Positions 3,110 through 12,812 of a DNA stretch of 41,995 bases are shown in pieces. Position numbers and translations under genes: made by a program. The stretch's first letter is position 1. Every line of letters starts with the position of its first letter. Below the pieces are notes generated by a model. It searched no databases, was not told where the DNA came from, and saw only the letters and a program-made list of their open reading frames with translations. Source of the DNA: a virus; the IMG/VR virus record IMGVR_UViG_3300045453_000086, positions 1 through 41,995 of that record. One strand, given 5' to 3'.

Positions 3110-3981
3110 GCCGTGGCCCCTTGTCCTTGTTGAAGCTGAGGCGGCAGCTGGCGCCAGAGACGGCCGTCGAGCTCGGCGCCGGCGGCCTTCTTGCCGACGC
3201 GCACCATGCGGCCGTTGGCGTCGGCCGGCGCGTGCTCGCCCCATTGCTTGAAGAAGAACGCCGTGCCGTAGCGGAGGCACTGGTCGCGCAGCGCCCGGAA
3301 CACGGCGGGATCGGAAACCCGGGCCCGCGGCCCCGACTCGCCGCCGGGGATGATCCAGTCGAGGCGGTGGCGCTGGACCGCGACCGGCGCCGAGCTTCCA
3401 TCGTCGGCATAGCGCAGCCCGGCCAGGGCATTGATGTATCCGCCGCGGATCCGCACGGCCGTCAGGTCGGTCGGCCCCAGCGCCGGCTCGATCGACACGA
3501 AGCGCAGCTTCGGCCCGTCGATCGACAGCAGCGTCGGGAGGCGCAGGTTCGCCATGGCCTGGTTTTCGGCCGTCACGCCCAGCGCGACGTTGGCCGGCAT
3601 CCGCCGGCGTCGGTGATACCGCTTCGCGACCTGCGGCCGCTTGGTCAGCAGCAGCCAGTCGAGATCGGGCGTCGCCTCGATCTCTTCCATGAGGTCGTCG
3701 CGCCAGTCGTCGCTGACTTCCTTGTCGTAGGGATCGCAGAGCGACGGGAAGACGCGGGCGCGAACGCCGTTCGCGGCGGCCTTGCGCTGCCAGCGCCGCG
3801 GCAGCTTCCAGGTCGAGGGCGCCGACAGGCGCCGCGGCACGCCCTTGCGGTACGCCGGCCAGCCGTACCGCTCGGCCAGGGCCGCGGCGTAGCAGTTGTC
3901 GCAGGCGGCCGAGACGGGCGTGCAGCCCAGCCACGGGCTGAAGGTGTGATCGGTCCACTCGATCGCGCTGTCGGCGGTCAT
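3106..3981 (-). CDS. DUF5131 (phage Gp37/Gp68) family protein
   Basis: 291 residues beginning with the family signature IEWTDHTFSPWLGC followed by CDNCYA, giving three cysteines C20-x6-C27-x2-C30. The cluster resembles a radical-SAM-like metal site and the family is predicted to have a TIM-barrel-like fold. Other conserved stretches are LLLTKRP near 117, FVSIEPALG near 165 and GGESGPRAR near 218. The biochemical function is not established. One copy of the 15-bp palindrome (3760-3774) is read through as ANGVRA within residues about 70-74. It overlaps both neighbours by 4 bp. Confidence 0.88.
   Translation of the reverse strand: MTADSAIEWTDHTFSPWLGCTPVSAACDNCYAAALAERYGWPAYRKGVPRRLSAPSTWKLPRRWQRKAAANGVRARVFPSLCDPYDKEVSDDWRDDLMEEIEATPDLDWLLLTKRPQVAKRYHRRRRMPANVALGVTAENQAMANLRLPTLLSIDGPKLRFVSIEPALGPTDLTAVRIRGGYINALAGLRYADDGSSAPVAVQRHRLDWIIPGGESGPRARVSDPAVFRALRDQCLRYGTAFFFKQWGEHAPADANGRMVRVGKKAAGAELDGRLWRQLPPQLQQGQGATA
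3760..3774 (-). repeat. 15-bp palindrome copy a, in coding sequence
   Basis: GCGAACGCCGTTCGC on the plus strand, i.e. GCGAACGGCGTTCGC on the minus strand. It lies within the DUF5131 gene and is translated in frame. Confidence 0.85.
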
Positions 3982-5157: not shown

Positions 5158-5782
5158 GATCGTCCCCCTCGAGATCTTCGCCGTCGCCGCCGTCGACGGC
5201 ATCGACGCCGCCGGGCCCGGCGCCGTGCGGGCCCAGCAGGTCGTTGGTCGCGTGGCGCCAGGCGCGCTTGAAGCGGTCGCGCCAGGCGTTGCCGTCGGCC
5301 GGCGCCTCGATGCCGTGCTGCAGGTGCCAGACCATGCCGATGACGATCTGCGTCGCGCGGATCAGGGCCTGGTCGGGATCGGTGCCCAGGAAGTCGGGCA
5401 GCGGCTTCAGGTCGATCGAGATCCCGGCGCCGAACACGAACGGGTTACGGTCGATCTCGAGCCAGTCGCGCGCGTAGGCCTCGATCCGGTCGGGGTCGAG
5501 GCCGCGGCCCTTGAGGATCTCGCGCACTTCGGCCTGCCGCTCGGCCGTCTGCGTCGCCAGCGTGAACGACAGGCCGGTGACGGCGGTGTCGACGTTGTGC
5601 CGGCAAGCCGCGGCGTCGGTGCACTTCTCGACGCAGGTCCCGGGTGGCGGCGTGTCGTCGACCCAGAGCGGATAGACGGTCAGACCGCACTGGCCGCACT
5701 TGCGGCCGGGGTGATCGGTCGGCCAGGGCGGGCCGGCGCGATCGTAGCCCGCCGGCGGCGGGGCGTTGGTCGCGTCGCTCAT
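5150..5782 (-). CDS. Hypothetical protein with N-terminal Cys motifs
   Basis: 210 residues. The N-terminal region has CGQC near 29 and further cysteines near 50, 54 and 60 (TCVEKCTDAAACRH), a likely zinc-binding knuckle. The middle is helical and contains the hydrophobic DQALIRATQIVIGMVWHLQH. The C-terminus is a low-complexity Gly/Asp tail. Start 5782 overlaps the ParB-like gene stop by 4 bp. No family recognised. Confidence 0.72.
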   Translation of the reverse strand: MSDATNAPPPAGYDRAGPPWPTDHPGRKCGQCGLTVYPLWVDDTPPPGTCVEKCTDAAACRHNVDTAVTGLSFTLATQTAERQAEVREILKGRGLDPDRIEAYARDWLEIDRNPFVFGAGISIDLKPLPDFLGTDPDQALIRATQIVIGMVWHLQHGIEAPADGNAWRDRFKRAWRHATNDLLGPHGAGPGGVDAVDGGDGEDLEGDDHG

Positions 5783-7335
5783 TGCTTCTTCTTTCCCTTC
5801 GCCTTGGCCTTTGCCTTCGCCTTCGCCTTCGGCGCGGCCTTCTGCGGCTCGGCGGGTACGATCGGCTTCTCGGCCTGTGGCTTCACGCCCAGGGTCGCCC
5901 CCAGGGCGAGCAGCAGCCGCGGGCACGTCTTTTCGTGGTAGCTCCAGACGTGCTCATAGTTGTCGTCGAGCTGCGCGCGTGCGATCTCGCGCAGAGCGGT
6001 GATGACGGCCGCGTCCTTCAGGGCAGCGAACTTCGGCCAGACCTTTGCCTTCTCCTCGTCGCGCATCCAGCCGGCCTTGACGGTGATCGTCGGCAGCGCG
6101 CGCTTCAGGATCGCGGCCGATACGTTCAGGCCGCTGTCGCCGGTGATCAGGTCCAGCATCATGAAGCGGAGCGCGACGCCGCTGTCCTTCGCGAAGGCCT
6201 CGACCAGCTGCGCGTTGAACGTCTCGCGCACGATCTTGCGCTCCGGCGTTTCCTGATAGCTCGGCGCCGAGCTGTAGGAGTAGCTGGGCCTCTTCCAGGG
6301 TTTCACGCCTTCGGCGGTGCGGATCCTGTGCTTGTCGTCGATGTAGACGATCGCCGTGCACGTCTTCGGCACTTTGCCGGTGACCTTGTGATCCGGGCTC
6401 CACCGCACCTGGTTGCCGTTGTCGCCCCATTGCCAGCTGGCGAGCGCGCTTTCGTTGACGAGCTTCGCGCCCGGCCACTTCTTCTGCAGCTGCTCGAGCC
6501 TGGCCTTCGCGGCGACCTTCTGCAGCCGGTCGAACTGCGCGACGTCGGCGAAGTAGCGCTTGCTGCCTTCCTCGATGATCTCGCCCTGGTAGAGAGCGAC
6601 GTCGAAGGCGGCGGCCGACACCGGCACCGCGGCATCCGCGACCGTCTTGCGCGCTTCGTCGGCCGACAGGTGGCTCAGCCGCCAGCGGTGCCGGTCGAGC
6701 ACGGCCTTCTGCAGGGAGTGCGGCAGCGCGGCGATCGTGCGCGCCGTCTCGATCTTCATGCCGTCGCGGCCCTTCATGGCCTCCTGCAGATCGTCCGACA
6801 GGTTGTTCACCAGCGAGATCCGCTGCAGCACGAAGCGCTTCGACTTGCCGATCTGCGCCGCCACGCGGGCTGGCGAGTACTTCACCGGATCCAGCTTCTG
6901 CAGGTCCGCGAAGGCGCGGGCTTCGGCCATCGGCTCGACGTCCTCGCGCTGCAGGTTCTCGATCAGCTGCAGGGCGATCGAGTCGGCATCGTCGGCTTCC
7001 TTGACCTGGCACACAGCGCCTTCGGCCTTGAGCAGCTTCAGCGCGCGCAGACGGCGCTCGCCGCCCATGAGCTCGTAGTGCTCGCGCTTCTTCGGATGCG
7101 GCCGCACTACAAGGTTCTGCTGCAGGCCGTTGACCTTGATCGACTCGGCGAGCTCGGCGATCCCGGCGTCGTCGAATTCCTTGCGCGGGTTGAAGGGCGA
7201 CGGGTGGATCAGCTCGAGCGGGATATAGCGCTGTTGCTTGAAGGTCGCCGGGCCGAGCTCGGCCAGGGGCAGAGTGAATTGCGGTTCGGGGGCGACGGGC
7301 GCCGGGGTCGCCGTCGCCGCTGCGGTGCTTGCCAT
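5779..7335 (-). CDS. ParB/sulfiredoxin-fold nuclease-like protein
   Basis: 518 residues. Residues about 35-120 carry the ParB N-terminal signature: NPRKEF near 49, SIKVNGLQQNLVVRP near 65-79, and GGERRLRAL near 91-99. These are followed by ENLQREDVEPMAEA and an HTH-like segment (YSPARVAAQIGKSKRFVLQR). The remaining 300 residues are uncharacterised, ending in a repetitive KAKAKAKAKAKGKKKQ tail that could bind nucleic acid. It is much longer than chromosomal ParB (about 300). A GAGAGGAA Shine-Dalgarno lies just before the ATG at 7335. No parA partner is present, so plasmid-type partitioning is unlikely. A DNA-binding or nuclease role in early phage metabolism is more plausible. Confidence 0.88.
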   Translation of the reverse strand: MASTAAATATPAPVAPEPQFTLPLAELGPATFKQQRYIPLELIHPSPFNPRKEFDDAGIAELAESIKVNGLQQNLVVRPHPKKREHYELMGGERRLRALKLLKAEGAVCQVKEADDADSIALQLIENLQREDVEPMAEARAFADLQKLDPVKYSPARVAAQIGKSKRFVLQRISLVNNLSDDLQEAMKGRDGMKIETARTIAALPHSLQKAVLDRHRWRLSHLSADEARKTVADAAVPVSAAAFDVALYQGEIIEEGSKRYFADVAQFDRLQKVAAKARLEQLQKKWPGAKLVNESALASWQWGDNGNQVRWSPDHKVTGKVPKTCTAIVYIDDKHRIRTAEGVKPWKRPSYSYSSAPSYQETPERKIVRETFNAQLVEAFAKDSGVALRFMMLDLITGDSGLNVSAAILKRALPTITVKAGWMRDEEKAKVWPKFAALKDAAVITALREIARAQLDDNYEHVWSYHEKTCPRLLLALGATLGVKPQAEKPIVPAEPQKAAPKAKAKAKAKAKGKKKQ

Positions 7336-7339
7336 GTCT

Positions 7340-7636
7340 CTATTCCTCTCTGTCGTCGTTTCCCGCGGCGAAGTGGGCATGCAGGAACGCCCGCGGGCGC
7401 GTGTCCTGCTGCGAGGGCGTCGGCGTCGGCGCCGGCGCGTTGGGATCCGGGAGCGCGTCGATCGCGCGCTTGATGCCGGCGATGCCGTCGGGGTGGCCGT
7501 GCAGCTCGAACGCCCAAGCGTTGACCGTCAGGCCGCTGGGCTCGCCGCGCGGCGTGTATTCGATCACGGCGCGGCCGCTCGCCAGGCGGCGCACCAGGCG
7601 CACGTCGCGGCCGCGATAGGTGAGGGTGACGGCCAC
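7340..7636 (-). CDS. Hypothetical small protein, GTG start
   Basis: 98 residues. Beta-rich N-terminus (VTLTYRGRDVRLVRRLASGR, AVIEYTPRG) and a Pro/Thr-rich linker (PNAPAPTPTPSQ) before a short charged tail. No ATG is available at the expected place. GTG at 7636, two bases after the upstream stop, matches the packing of this operon. The stop lies 4 bp before the ParB-like gene. Function unknown. Confidence 0.6.
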   Translation of the reverse strand: MAVTLTYRGRDVRLVRRLASGRAVIEYTPRGEPSGLTVNAWAFELHGHPDGIAGIKRAIDALPDPNAPAPTPTPSQQDTRPRAFLHAHFAAGNDDREE

Positions 7637-9178: not shown

Positions 9179-9482
9179 GGTCCTGCTTCCGGCGAAACGC
9201 CGTAAAGGCCCCGGCAGAACGACGACCCGCCGGCGACAGCTTCGACCGCGGCCCGTCGACCGCTGGAGCCGGAGACGTCCTGAGCCAGGTCCGGAGAGAG
9301 GCCATGTGCGCCTTGCGGAAGGCGGCGGCGGCCTTGGCCGAGGCGCGTTCCTCGGCGCGCGACCGGCGCAGGCACGCATGCGCCTCGGGATGGCGGATCG
9401 CCAGGATGACGGCGCGCACGATCCGGGGATCGGCGAGCGCCTCGATCAGTTGTCGTTTGAATTCACGTCGGGCAGACGACAT
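9054..9482 (-). CDS. Possible early leftward gene, 3' end overlapping 8930-9178
   Basis: 142 residues. The N-terminal part (MSSARREFKRQLIEALADPR, IVRAVILAIRHPEA) looks like genuine protein. After residue about 110 the frame is antisense to 8930-9178 and looks non-native. Near residues 90-106 it reads FTAFRRKQDLKILEIPT, strikingly like residues 208-224 of the TerL of this same phage. It starts about 120 bp from the operators at 9605-9651 and would be the first gene of a pL-type transcript. It may be a truncated or fused relic. Confidence 0.4.
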   Translation of the reverse strand: MSSARREFKRQLIEALADPRIVRAVILAIRHPEAHACLRRSRAEERASAKAAAAFRKAHMASLRTWLRTSPAPAVDGPRSKLSPAGRRSAGAFTAFRRKQDLKILEIPTASSSPAPAARGRTGKPATARPSRGARSAPGHRR

Positions 9483-9599
9483 GCGCGGCTCCTGAGAGGG
9501 GAGCCGGCGCCCGGCCGACAAGACAGACAGTGGCGCCAGGGTGGTGGCGCGGGCCGGCCGGGCGGCCGGGCCGGCCCCGTGGGGAGGCCGGCGCGGGCA

Positions 9600-9628
9600 A
9601 GAATGGGTAAAAACTTACCCTCAGTCAA
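9600..9628 (-). promoter_or_regulatory. Candidate leftward promoter between operators
   Basis: On the minus strand TTGACT (9628-9623) is followed after 17 bases by CATTCT (9605-9600). The -35 is good and the -10 is weak. It lies between and across the two operator copies, as expected for a repressor-controlled pL. The placement is inference. Confidence 0.3.
9605..9620. promoter_or_regulatory. Operator, left cluster, copy 1
   Basis: GGGTAAAAACTTACCC: perfect 6-bp arms GGGTAA/TTACCC around AAAC. The same motif recurs at 9636 and, with changes, beside the repressor gene start at 10876-10939. Confidence 0.7.
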
Positions 9629-9635
9629 TAAGTGA

Positions 9636-9651
9636 GCGTAAAGATTTACCC
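9636..9651. promoter_or_regulatory. Operator, left cluster, copy 2
   Basis: GCGTAAAGATTTACCC: GTAAA/TTTAC arms with one outer mismatch against the copy at 9605. Centre-to-centre distance to that copy is 31 bp, about three helical turns. Confidence 0.65.
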
Positions 9652-9661
9652 ATCCCTAGCC

Positions 9662-9676
9662 GCGAACGGCGTTCGC
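9662..9676 (+). repeat. 15-bp palindrome copy c, intergenic
   Basis: GCGAACGGCGTTCGC, 10 bp beyond the left operator cluster and 21 bp before the 3' end of the DUF2846 gene. Confidence 0.85.
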
Positions 9677-9697
9677 GGTTGGCCGCCGGAAGCAGCT

Positions 9698-10141
9698 CTA
9701 TCGGATTTCCTGGGCGCGCTTGCCGCCCAGCACGGCCTTCTGGCCCTTGTCGGCGGCGACCTCGAAGACGGCGCAGCGTGGCGCCATGACGCCCATCCGC
9801 ATGGCCACCTCGACATAGCGGACCTCGCCGGCGGCGATCGCCACGATCTTCGAATCGGCCCCCTCTCCGGCGTTGCAGCGGATGTCGTACTGACCGGGCT
9901 CGACGTCGACGGCGAACCAGGTGTCGGCTGCCAGGGCGCCCAGCGCGCGCTGCCCCATGGTGACGTTGACGGTCATCGCCGCGCCGAAGATCGACTCGCG
10001 ATAGATGTAGAAGGCGGCCTTGCCGGCGGGTGGCTGACCGAAGCGCTTGCCCTCCGTGTCGAGATCTCCGGGCGCCATGGGAACTGATGCGCAGCCGGCG
10101 AGGGAGAGCAGGAGGACGGCGGCGAGCAGCGTGCGTGGCAT
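9698..10141 (-). CDS. DUF2846-type lipoprotein behind the repressor
   Basis: 147 residues with a textbook lipoprotein signal: hydrophobic TLLAAVLLLSLAGC with the lipobox LAGC (Cys17). The mature part matches the DUF2846 pattern (GKAAFYIYRES, then VDVEPGQYDIRC and a beta-rich C-terminus). The predicted location is the inner leaflet of the outer membrane. It starts 9 bp after the repressor stop on the same strand, so it should be expressed from the repressor promoter in the lysogen. That is the position of rexAB in lambda and suggests a lysogenic-conversion or exclusion function. The function itself is inferred. Confidence 0.85.
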   Translation of the reverse strand: MPRTLLAAVLLLSLAGCASVPMAPGDLDTEGKRFGQPPAGKAAFYIYRESIFGAAMTVNVTMGQRALGALAADTWFAVDVEPGQYDIRCNAGEGADSKIVAIAAGEVRYVEVAMRMGVMAPRCAVFEVAADKGQKAVLGGKRAQEIR

Positions 10142-10150
10142 GGCGTGTCC

Positions 10151-10864
10151 CTACTTCTTGCGACGGATCGGCGTATAGACGCCGATCACCAGGGCGACGA
10201 TGGCAACTTCCTCGTCATCGCGCGCCTTCTTGGGGTCGAGCTCGATCGGCTTCCACTTGTCGTCGGTGGAATCGGGGCTGAGCACGGTCACGCGACCGCG
10301 CCGGCTGATCAGCTTGGCCGTGACTTCCTTCAGGCCCGACTGCTGGCGCCGTCGCTCGAGGATCACCAGGTCGTCCTGCTGCGGCTCCACCGCGGCGATT
10401 CCGATATCGACGCAATGCAGCACGTTGCCGGGCGCGGCGATCCTGTTGATCGACGTGCCGCGCACGATCAGCCCGAACTGCGCCTCATAGGGATAGGCCG
10501 GGTGCGCCGAGATCGGGAACTGCTCGAAATCCTGCGGCGTGAGCTCGACGTCGATGTCCAGCCACTGGCCGGCGGCGACCTCGCCGCGCGTCGGGATGGC
10601 GGCGGTCGCCGGGACATCTTCCGCGCCGAACATCTCGGCCATCGTGACGGGGCGCTCCAGCAGCTCCGAGGCCGCGCGCACGAAGTTGCGCTGGGTGTCG
10701 GCGCGTTGCGACCGGGCGTTGCCATGGAGGAACTGCCGGGCGGCGGCGGGGGAGTGGCCGGCCTTCACCGACAGCTTCCGTCCGGACAGCCTGTCCTTGT
10801 GGGTCGCCATGAATTTGGCGAACGCCGCGCGCGCACGTTCGATGTCATCAACCATGACTAACAT
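10151..10864 (-). CDS. LexA-like phage repressor (S24 peptidase)
   Basis: 237 residues. An N-terminal HTH DNA-binding region (about 10-70; LSGRKLSVKAGHSPAAARQF) is followed by an S24 domain. This has an Ala98-Gly99 cleavage site in GEVAAGQWLD, a serine nucleophile at Ser138 in VRGTSIN and a lysine at Lys184 in EVTAKLI. It would hold the prophage silent and self-cleave on RecA activation. Three operator-like sites lie in the divergent gap before the Cro-like gene. A second ATG at 10855 is an equally possible start, giving 234 residues. Family assignment is firm; operator specificity is inferred. Confidence 0.93.
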   Translation of the reverse strand: MLVMVDDIERARAAFAKFMATHKDRLSGRKLSVKAGHSPAAARQFLHGNARSQRADTQRNFVRAASELLERPVTMAEMFGAEDVPATAAIPTRGEVAAGQWLDIDVELTPQDFEQFPISAHPAYPYEAQFGLIVRGTSINRIAAPGNVLHCVDIGIAAVEPQQDDLVILERRRQQSGLKEVTAKLISRRGRVTVLSPDSTDDKWKPIELDPKKARDDEEVAIVALVIGVYTPIRRKK

Positions 10865-10875
10865 ATTGATAGAGC

Positions 10876-10891
10876 GGATAAAATTTTGCCC
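10876..10891. promoter_or_regulatory. Operator-like site, right cluster, copy 1
   Basis: GGATAAAATTTTGCCC, 12 of 16 positions matching the operator at 9605. It sits just upstream of the repressor start and abuts the next site. Confidence 0.5.
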
Positions 10892-10907
10892 GAGTAAGGT
10901 TTCACCC
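10892..10907. promoter_or_regulatory. Operator-like site, right cluster, copy 2
   Basis: GAGTAAGGTTTCACCC, a degenerate form (GNGTAA-N4-TNACCC) placed end to end with the preceding site at exactly 16-bp period. Confidence 0.45.
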
Positions 10908-10923
10908 GCGCCGCCATTGACGT

Positions 10924-10939
10924 GGGTAAATTATTACGC
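10924..10939. promoter_or_regulatory. Operator, right cluster, copy 3
   Basis: GGGTAAATTATTACGC, the mirror form of the 9636 operator, 32 bp (two units) from the preceding site and 12 bp before the ATG of the Cro-like gene. Confidence 0.65.
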
Positions 10940-10951
10940 AATCCTCGTGGC

Positions 10952-11233
10952 ATGGACGACGATCTTCACCTCGATGCCGTGCTGGCCCGTCTCCGGGCGT
11001 TCCGGAAGGCGGCCGACCTCTCCCTGTCGGCCTTGGCCTTGGCGGCCGGTCTGTCGCGGGCGGCGCTGCGCGGCATGGACGATGCCGAATGGGCGCCGAC
11101 CAGCTCGACGATCCGGGCGGTCGAGCGGCTGATCCCAGCCGGTTGGGGAGAGGGCGAGGCGCTGTCCGAAGCCGTGCTGTCGGCGCTGCGCGCCGCACCC
11201 GCCGGCGCAGCAGCAACCATCGCAGCGGAATAG
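10952..11233 (+). CDS. Small HTH protein, Cro-like
   Basis: 93 residues. Residues about 10-60 form an XRE-type HTH (LARLRAFRKAADLSLSALAL, AAGLSRAALRGMDD, then TIRAVERLIP). It is transcribed away from the repressor, and the shared gap holds three operators. That fits Cro or a lytic-switch regulator. ATG at 10952 was chosen; a GTG at 10922 in the same frame would start inside the operator and is rejected. It is probably the first gene of the rightward early transcript. Confidence 0.75.
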   Translation: MDDDLHLDAVLARLRAFRKAADLSLSALALAAGLSRAALRGMDDAEWAPTSSTIRAVERLIPAGWGEGEALSEAVLSALRAAPAGAAATIAAE

Positions 11234-11296
11234 GGGGACCGGTCATGACGTCACGCGCCCTGCTCGTCCCGCCGATGCTGCTGCCGGCCCGCAAGG

Positions 11297-11527
11297 CTAA
11301 GGCTTCGGCGCGAACGGATCGTCCGGCATCGCGAAGCCCACGTCCTGCTGCATCGCCTTCAGCAGGTTCAGCAGGTACATCGCATCGAGGAACGGCATCT
11401 CGACCTCGTGCCATCCATTGCTACGGTCGGTGTACTGCAGCGACACTACGATCCGGGGAACGTCGAATCCGGCTGTTCGTGTCAGCCCCTGTATTCGACC
11501 CACGTCCGGCAGCTTGTTCACCGTCAT
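11297..11527 (-). CDS. Hypothetical small protein, antisense to the rightward operon
   Basis: 76 residues: beta-rich start (VPRIVVSLQYTDRSNGWHEV) then a helix (FLDAMYLLNLLKAMQQDVGF) and a Pro-rich tail. A good AGGAGAAG Shine-Dalgarno precedes the ATG at 11527. It lies on the strand opposite to its neighbours, between the Cro-like gene and 11610, so it is either lysogen-expressed or antisense to the early transcript. No family is recognised. Confidence 0.68.
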   Translation of the reverse strand: MTVNKLPDVGRIQGLTRTAGFDVPRIVVSLQYTDRSNGWHEVEMPFLDAMYLLNLLKAMQQDVGFAMPDDPFAPKP

Positions 11528-12121: not shown

Positions 12122-12339
12122 CCCGCCGCGCCTTCGACGCCGACTATCTGGTGCGCACCTTCGCGGGCGCGCCGACTCATGTCCGCCTCGATCGGGACGA
12201 GGCCGCTTCTAGGAGTCGAGCTTCGCAGGTCGCGGCTCTGCTCGGCGGTGTACCGGGCGTGCGCAATAGGTCCGGTGCGGGCACGGCTTCGAAGACGAAG
12301 CCTTCCGCCCGCCGGCGCTCCAAGAGGCGCGCCCGATGA
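12118..12339 (+). CDS. Hypothetical small basic protein
   Basis: 73 residues with an Arg/Lys/Ser-rich C-terminal tail (TKPSARRRSKRRAR) and a short helical middle (SRASQVAALLGGVPG). Coupled by 4-bp overlap to both neighbours. Its first 18 nucleotides are identical to those of the following gene (MTRRAF). Probably nucleic-acid binding; function unknown. Confidence 0.55.
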   Translation: MTRRAFDADYLVRTFAGAPTHVRLDRDEAASRSRASQVAALLGGVPGVRNRSGAGTASKTKPSARRRSKRRAR

Positions 12340-12812
12340 CCCGCCGCGCCTTCCAGCCGCAGAAGTCGATCGACCCCGAGCTGCCCAAGGCGGCGGTCCA
12401 GCGTCTGGTCGATCAGGCGGGCGGCGCCAAGCGCGCGGCGATCGTGATCGGGCGCGCGCCGTCGACCGTCTATGCCTACGCCGACCCGCAGGCATCCGAC
12501 GAAATGACCTATGCCCAGGTCGCGGCGCTGACCGGGCCGAAGACGCCGGCCGGCGCCGAGCATCTGGCCACGCTGGCGCATGGCGTCTTCCTGCCGATGC
12601 CGCCGGCCGACACCGAGATCGGCGAGCTCACGGCCGAGTCGATCGTGCAGCACGGCGACGCCGTCGCCGAGGTCGTGCGCGCCATGTGCGACGGCAAGAT
12701 GGGCGACGACGAACGCCCCGCCGCGATCGTCGAGATCGACGAAGCGATCCGCGCCCTGGTGCGCCTGCGCGCCGCGGTGTCGGGCAGGCCGCCCGGCGAC
12801 GGCGGCAGCTGA
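12336..12812 (+). CDS. HTH regulatory protein, CII-like candidate
   Basis: 158 residues. Residues about 25-60 (GGAKRAAIVIGRAPSTVYAY) form an HTH similar to phage regulatory proteins of the P2/P22 CII kind. A long helical C-terminal half (ELTAESIVQHGDAVAEVVRA; IVEIDEAIRALVRLRAAV) could mediate oligomerisation. Position in the early rightward operon downstream of the Cro-like gene matches cII. The exact role is inferred. Confidence 0.65.
   Translation: MTRRAFQPQKSIDPELPKAAVQRLVDQAGGAKRAAIVIGRAPSTVYAYADPQASDEMTYAQVAALTGPKTPAGAEHLATLAHGVFLPMPPADTEIGELTAESIVQHGDAVAEVVRAMCDGKMGDDERPAAIVEIDEAIRALVRLRAAVSGRPPGDGGS

Follow-up and report, generated by a model that had tools for sequence, protein, structure and literature searches.

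In phage lambda, two operator clusters 2.4 kb apart flank the cI unit and overlap the early promoters PL and PR, the rexAB genes lie between cI and OL, and CII is encoded further right. Its left cluster holds three sites, its cro message has a leader with AAGGAGGT, and repressor octamers bridge the two operator clusters. The C repressor of the alphaproteobacterial Rhizobium phage 16-3 likewise has annotated operators on both sides, next to or over PL and PR, here two plus two (OL1 and OL2, OR1 and OR2), with sites of 12-14 bases and OL directly behind the repressor gene. The immB region of N15/phiKO2 has been described with three OR and two OL sites (PMC4488713); these are linear plasmid prophages, and the OL sites of N15 lie upstream of repA. 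In PY54, a phage of Yersinia for which one operator only has been found, the cI and cro messages are leaderless, their start sites having been mapped by RACE (PMC4488713).

The switch considered here is that of a temperate phage, lies on a whole virus contig of 41,995 bases (the window) and has the same plan as that of N15/phiKO2. It shares with lambda the two operator clusters around the repressor unit, an extra gene between the repressor and OL, and a CII-like gene further right; the operators would also overlap PL and PR, both predicted here. It differs from lambda in that the left cluster has two sites, not three, in a different 16-base operator sequence, in clusters 1.2-1.3 kb apart, in a lipoprotein-like gene where lambda has rexAB and in a cro gene predicted to be leaderless; 16-3 differs in the number and length of its sites, in the position of OL and in a cro-side gene that lies off the leaderless distance. 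As read from its sequence, the switch is an ordinary lambda-type OL/OR system, of a plan known from lambda, 16-3 and N15/phiKO2.

The immunity block and its palindromes

From left to right, the immunity block consists of a leftward operon with a gene for a ParB-like protein (5779-7380, minus strand), two palindromes, a DUF2846 gene, the repressor gene, three palindromes and a gene for a helix-turn-helix (HTH) protein. Right of this last, Cro-like gene follow a CII-like activator gene (12336-12812, plus strand; Phage_CP76), a primase and then lambda-type terminase, portal and tail genes. The putative CI-type repressor (10151-10864, minus strand) has a predicted N-terminal DNA-binding part and a LexA/S24-like C-terminal half. 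Its phrog_4 match (E 2.8e-06) is a weak family assignment on its own; searched alone against Pfam it gave no match, and a profile built from four repressors matched LexA at 3.4e-05 and the 434 repressor weakly. A structure model from the single sequence reached a pLDDT of 34, too poor for use. Searches of viral_contigs and genome_contigs with the repressor yielded no close relative, nor did one of genome_contigs with the ParB profile. The Cro-like gene (10952-11233, plus strand) diverges from the repressor gene and encodes a small HTH-like product, matching HTH_31 at E 0.00068, which is below the curated cut-off, and phrog_7241 at E 0.002.

The five palindromes reported in the preliminary description were all recovered, with 0-2 mismatches to GGGTAA-N4-TTACCC. 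On the left, OL1 (GGGTAAAAACTTACCC, 9605-9620) has perfect half-sites and no mismatch, and OL2 (GCGTAAAGATTTACCC, 9636-9651; 1 mismatch) lies 31 bases from it, upstream of PL. On the right, OR3 (GGATAAAATTTTGCCC, 10876-10891; 2 mismatches) adjoins the repressor start, OR2 (GAGTAAGGTTTCACCC, 10892-10907; 2 mismatches) is 32 bases from OR1, and OR1 (GGGTAAATTATTACGC, 10924-10939) has 1 mismatch. The 16-bp grid noted earlier thus belongs to the right side only, where the steps are 16 and 32, and on the left 31 bases separate the two sites; the separation of the clusters, put at about 1.3 kb, was measured at 1.2-1.3 kb. A search of the rest of the phage for further sites returned none within 3 mismatches, so that the five represent the complete set in the 41,995 bases.

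The bare count of five at 3 mismatches is unremarkable, because 14 of 100 whole-window shuffles reach it (mean 2.85 matches). With the limit set at 2 mismatches, matches in 400 Markov sequences averaged 0.15, and no stretch of 1,335 bases contained more than one, as against five here. When each site was scored with a matrix trained on the other four, it ranked first among all positions outside the training set, with 18.5-25.2 bits for the sites and 8.0 bits for the best non-site. The five sites are real and not due to chance, and it is their quality and clustering, not their number, that carry the case. A promoter-operator pattern search of viral_contigs found no phage with the same operators; at least three clustered sites occurred in none of the 41 stretches that it returned.

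Two of the sites coincide with predicted early promoters. The leftward promoter PL (9600-9628, minus strand) is composed of TTGACT, 17 bases and CATTCT, with OL1 inside the spacer, and the rightward promoter PR (10917-10945, plus strand) of TTGACG, 17 bases and AATCCT, with OR1 inside the spacer and 6 bases between the -10 box and the cro start codon. Both are treated as predictions because a generic sigma-70 consensus scan listed no promoter in 9300-11300 and the -10 box of each is weak; the promoter type of the host may differ.

The DUF2846 lipoprotein-like gene (9698-10141, minus strand; PF11008, E 2.3e-11) comes immediately after the repressor, where lambda has rexAB. Envelope-type genes occupy the same place, between repressor and OL, in three other phages: G001 has a 42% identical relative on the opposite strand (locus L007, 3299-3748), phiLM21 another lipoprotein-like gene (L005, 5453-5854) and yong2 a protein with a hydrophobic N-terminus (L020, 36052-36462). 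These genes are candidates for surface or exclusion functions expressed by the prophage. A general rule of a membrane protein in the rex place was dropped, since Mae-JY35 has an HTH gene there and RR1-A none; in others the place is taken by uncharacterised genes, often on the other strand.

Which protein sets the operator sequence

The related phage G001 (locus L007) offers a comparison in which some of the possible binding proteins are conserved and others are not. Its ParB, primase, CII and lipoprotein are 68%, 62%, 65% and 42% identical to those of the window, and its repressor and Cro show no significant similarity to the window's. The palindrome of the window has no match in G001 within 2 mismatches. 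Repeated in both equivalent places is a different palindrome, near CACTACA-N3-TGTAGTG: one place has copies at 3181 and 3208, the other has them at about 4926, 4949 and 4976, the middle copy of these three being poor. The operator sequence has been replaced along with the repressor/Cro pair, which argues that the sites follow this pair.

The same comparison bears on the other proteins that might read the palindromes. It is extremely improbable that they are centromere-like or autoregulatory sites of the ParB-like protein, even though its gene belongs to the leftward operon that follows the left pair and the length of 16 bases is typical of parS palindromes: three of the five sites lie between the repressor and cro, and G001 keeps 62 of the 85 residues of the ParB HTH but not the palindrome, so ParB is unlikely to set the operator sequence and was rejected as the binder. 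Nor is CII a good candidate, since it too is kept in G001 while the palindrome is swapped, and it was likewise rejected. A host regulator might be considered, just as CII might because the record encodes it, but a host regulator common to the related phages would leave unexplained why every one of them has a palindrome of its own; binding by CII or a host regulator in place of the repressor/Cro pair is accordingly very unlikely.

The lambda-type reading, by which the five palindromes are the operators of an immunity switch, is highly probable on the evidence of sequence and gene context. The OL/OR interpretation offered in the preliminary description is supported by the position of the sites, which fall on predicted divergent early promoters and flank a phage-type repressor. 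Dimers of the repressor would presumably bind the two left and three right sites. Since OL1 and OR1 fall within the predicted PL and PR spacers, their occupation would shut both lytic operons off, and through OR3, beside its start, the repressor gene would be autoregulated. The same sites are probably recognised by the Cro-like protein too, in a different order of preference, and after damage the S24-like half would cleave itself and so release the switch. Spacings of 31 bases in the OL pair and 32 bases between OR1 and OR2, about three turns each, suggest cooperative binding.

Whether the two clusters would also interact is a separate matter. Looping between OL and OR is plausible because they are 1.2-1.3 kb apart, and the matched spacings of the pairs suit octamer bridging as in lambda. 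That the sites are true repressor operators whose two clusters act separately, without a loop, is nevertheless quite possible, if somewhat short of an even chance: nothing in the sequence demands a loop, and the separation of the clusters varies among phages, from about 0.9 kb in RR1-A to 4.0 kb in G003.

Switch regions of other phages

The arrangement was sought in other phages by a blind test, in which the gap between repressor and cro was split into all its 16-base words and each of these was scored against the remainder of the record; the scoring was composition-weighted, unweighted 16-mer matching being swamped by GC-rich words. The sample was not random: it consisted of matches of the window's repressor, terminase, primase, ParB or CII, and of kin or known systems, among them phi3LM21 as kin and 16-3 as a known system. 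The gap of phi3LM21 was set by eye, since the annotated starts of repressor and cro overlap there. RcMeacham was left out since no CI gene could be picked out. Among the eight loci from the capsid query, L012 and L013 were used for the palindrome scan only and L014-L019 were left out; from the three of the primase query, L008 and L009 were used for the palindrome scan only.

In 11 of 14 phages (the window, G001, yong2, phiLM21, Mae-JY35, PPF1, AmM-1, RR1-A, phi2LM21, Nsp-JY21 and phi3LM21) the best match lay beyond the repressor at a distance of no more than 2.5 kb. Of the 84 control windows, 3 had theirs within this distance when the same side was required and 8 when either side was allowed. 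For AmM-1, a site within the repressor gene itself reached an equal top score. Taken singly, the scores are modest: compared with 20 shuffles, the window, Mae-JY35 and PPF1 exceed the best shuffled score, and G001, yong2 and phiLM21 do not. In a twelfth phage, G003, the top two matches were 4.0 kb away. The test missed Ssp-JY40 as well as phage 16-3, although the record of the latter annotates OL and OR; with lambda as the positive control, OL1 and OL2 were the top two matches. The related phages have the same two-cluster layout, each with a palindrome of its own. The lambda-like logic proposed for the window is supported by the exchange of operators with the repressor/Cro pair in G001, by the recurrence of the layout and by the recovery of the lambda sites.

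Several of these regions deserve mention in their own right. In G003 (L028, 8698-8738 and 12728-12796), the OL-like pair is separated from OR by other genes. In phiLM21, a repeated palindrome near GTAGCGATTATCGCTAC is found on both sides of the repressor (L024, 9871-10071 and 11181-11272), which suggests that this phage has its own candidate operators. According to a 2025 study of phiLM21-like prophages, operators identical to the lambda or 16-3 ones were not found (PMC12429752). CI and Cro genes are named for the phi2LM21 and phi3LM21 prophages in the paper that describes them, the word operator being absent from its main text (PMC5537653). The switch regions or terminases of phages labelled as belonging to Microcystis or Nostoc (L020, L030, L040 and similar) resemble those of alphaproteobacterial phages; such phages may in truth infect bacteria that live alongside the cyanobacteria.

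Promoter and cro start

The cro start follows the beginning of a TTG by 34-37 bases in 11 of 13 phages, against a background of 4.8% for 16,216 ATG triplets, and TTGACA with at most one change occurs at that place in 8 of 13, against 1.1% for the same triplets. The range of 34-37 was picked after nine phages had been seen, and two of the four examined later fit it; phi2LM21, 16-3 and lambda do not. The cro starts are those annotated, but were chosen from the reading frame in the window, G001 and G003. With a 17-base spacer, the cro start codon would fall 5-8 bases behind the predicted -10 box in the 11 phages, and from this distance the cro message is probably leaderless. On the repressor side, a TANNNT box lies 6-7 bases before the start in 6 of 12 phages, the window not among them, and lambda has one as well; the background is 1.2% when gaps of 5-8 are counted, and phi3LM21 was left out of the scan.

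PY54 is the one phage with an experimentally mapped leaderless cro in the literature searched (PMC4488713). The trait is therefore already known, and its wider spread is a prediction of the present comparison. We tentatively suggest, at slightly less than an even chance, that in varied temperate phages the operator, PR and the cro start are fused in one exchangeable cassette with a leaderless cro. The phages concerned are those of Alphaproteobacteria, of cyanobacteria-labelled or of unnamed hosts. In such a cassette the operator would lie in or beside the PR spacer and transcription would start at the cro AUG; the repressor start looks leaderless too in about half of the phages, and the whole cassette would be swapped between phages with its own operator sequence. 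The comparison provides candidate operator sets ready for footprinting in phages whose switches are undescribed and, if leaderless cro is general, entry into the lytic cycle would come under leaderless translation.
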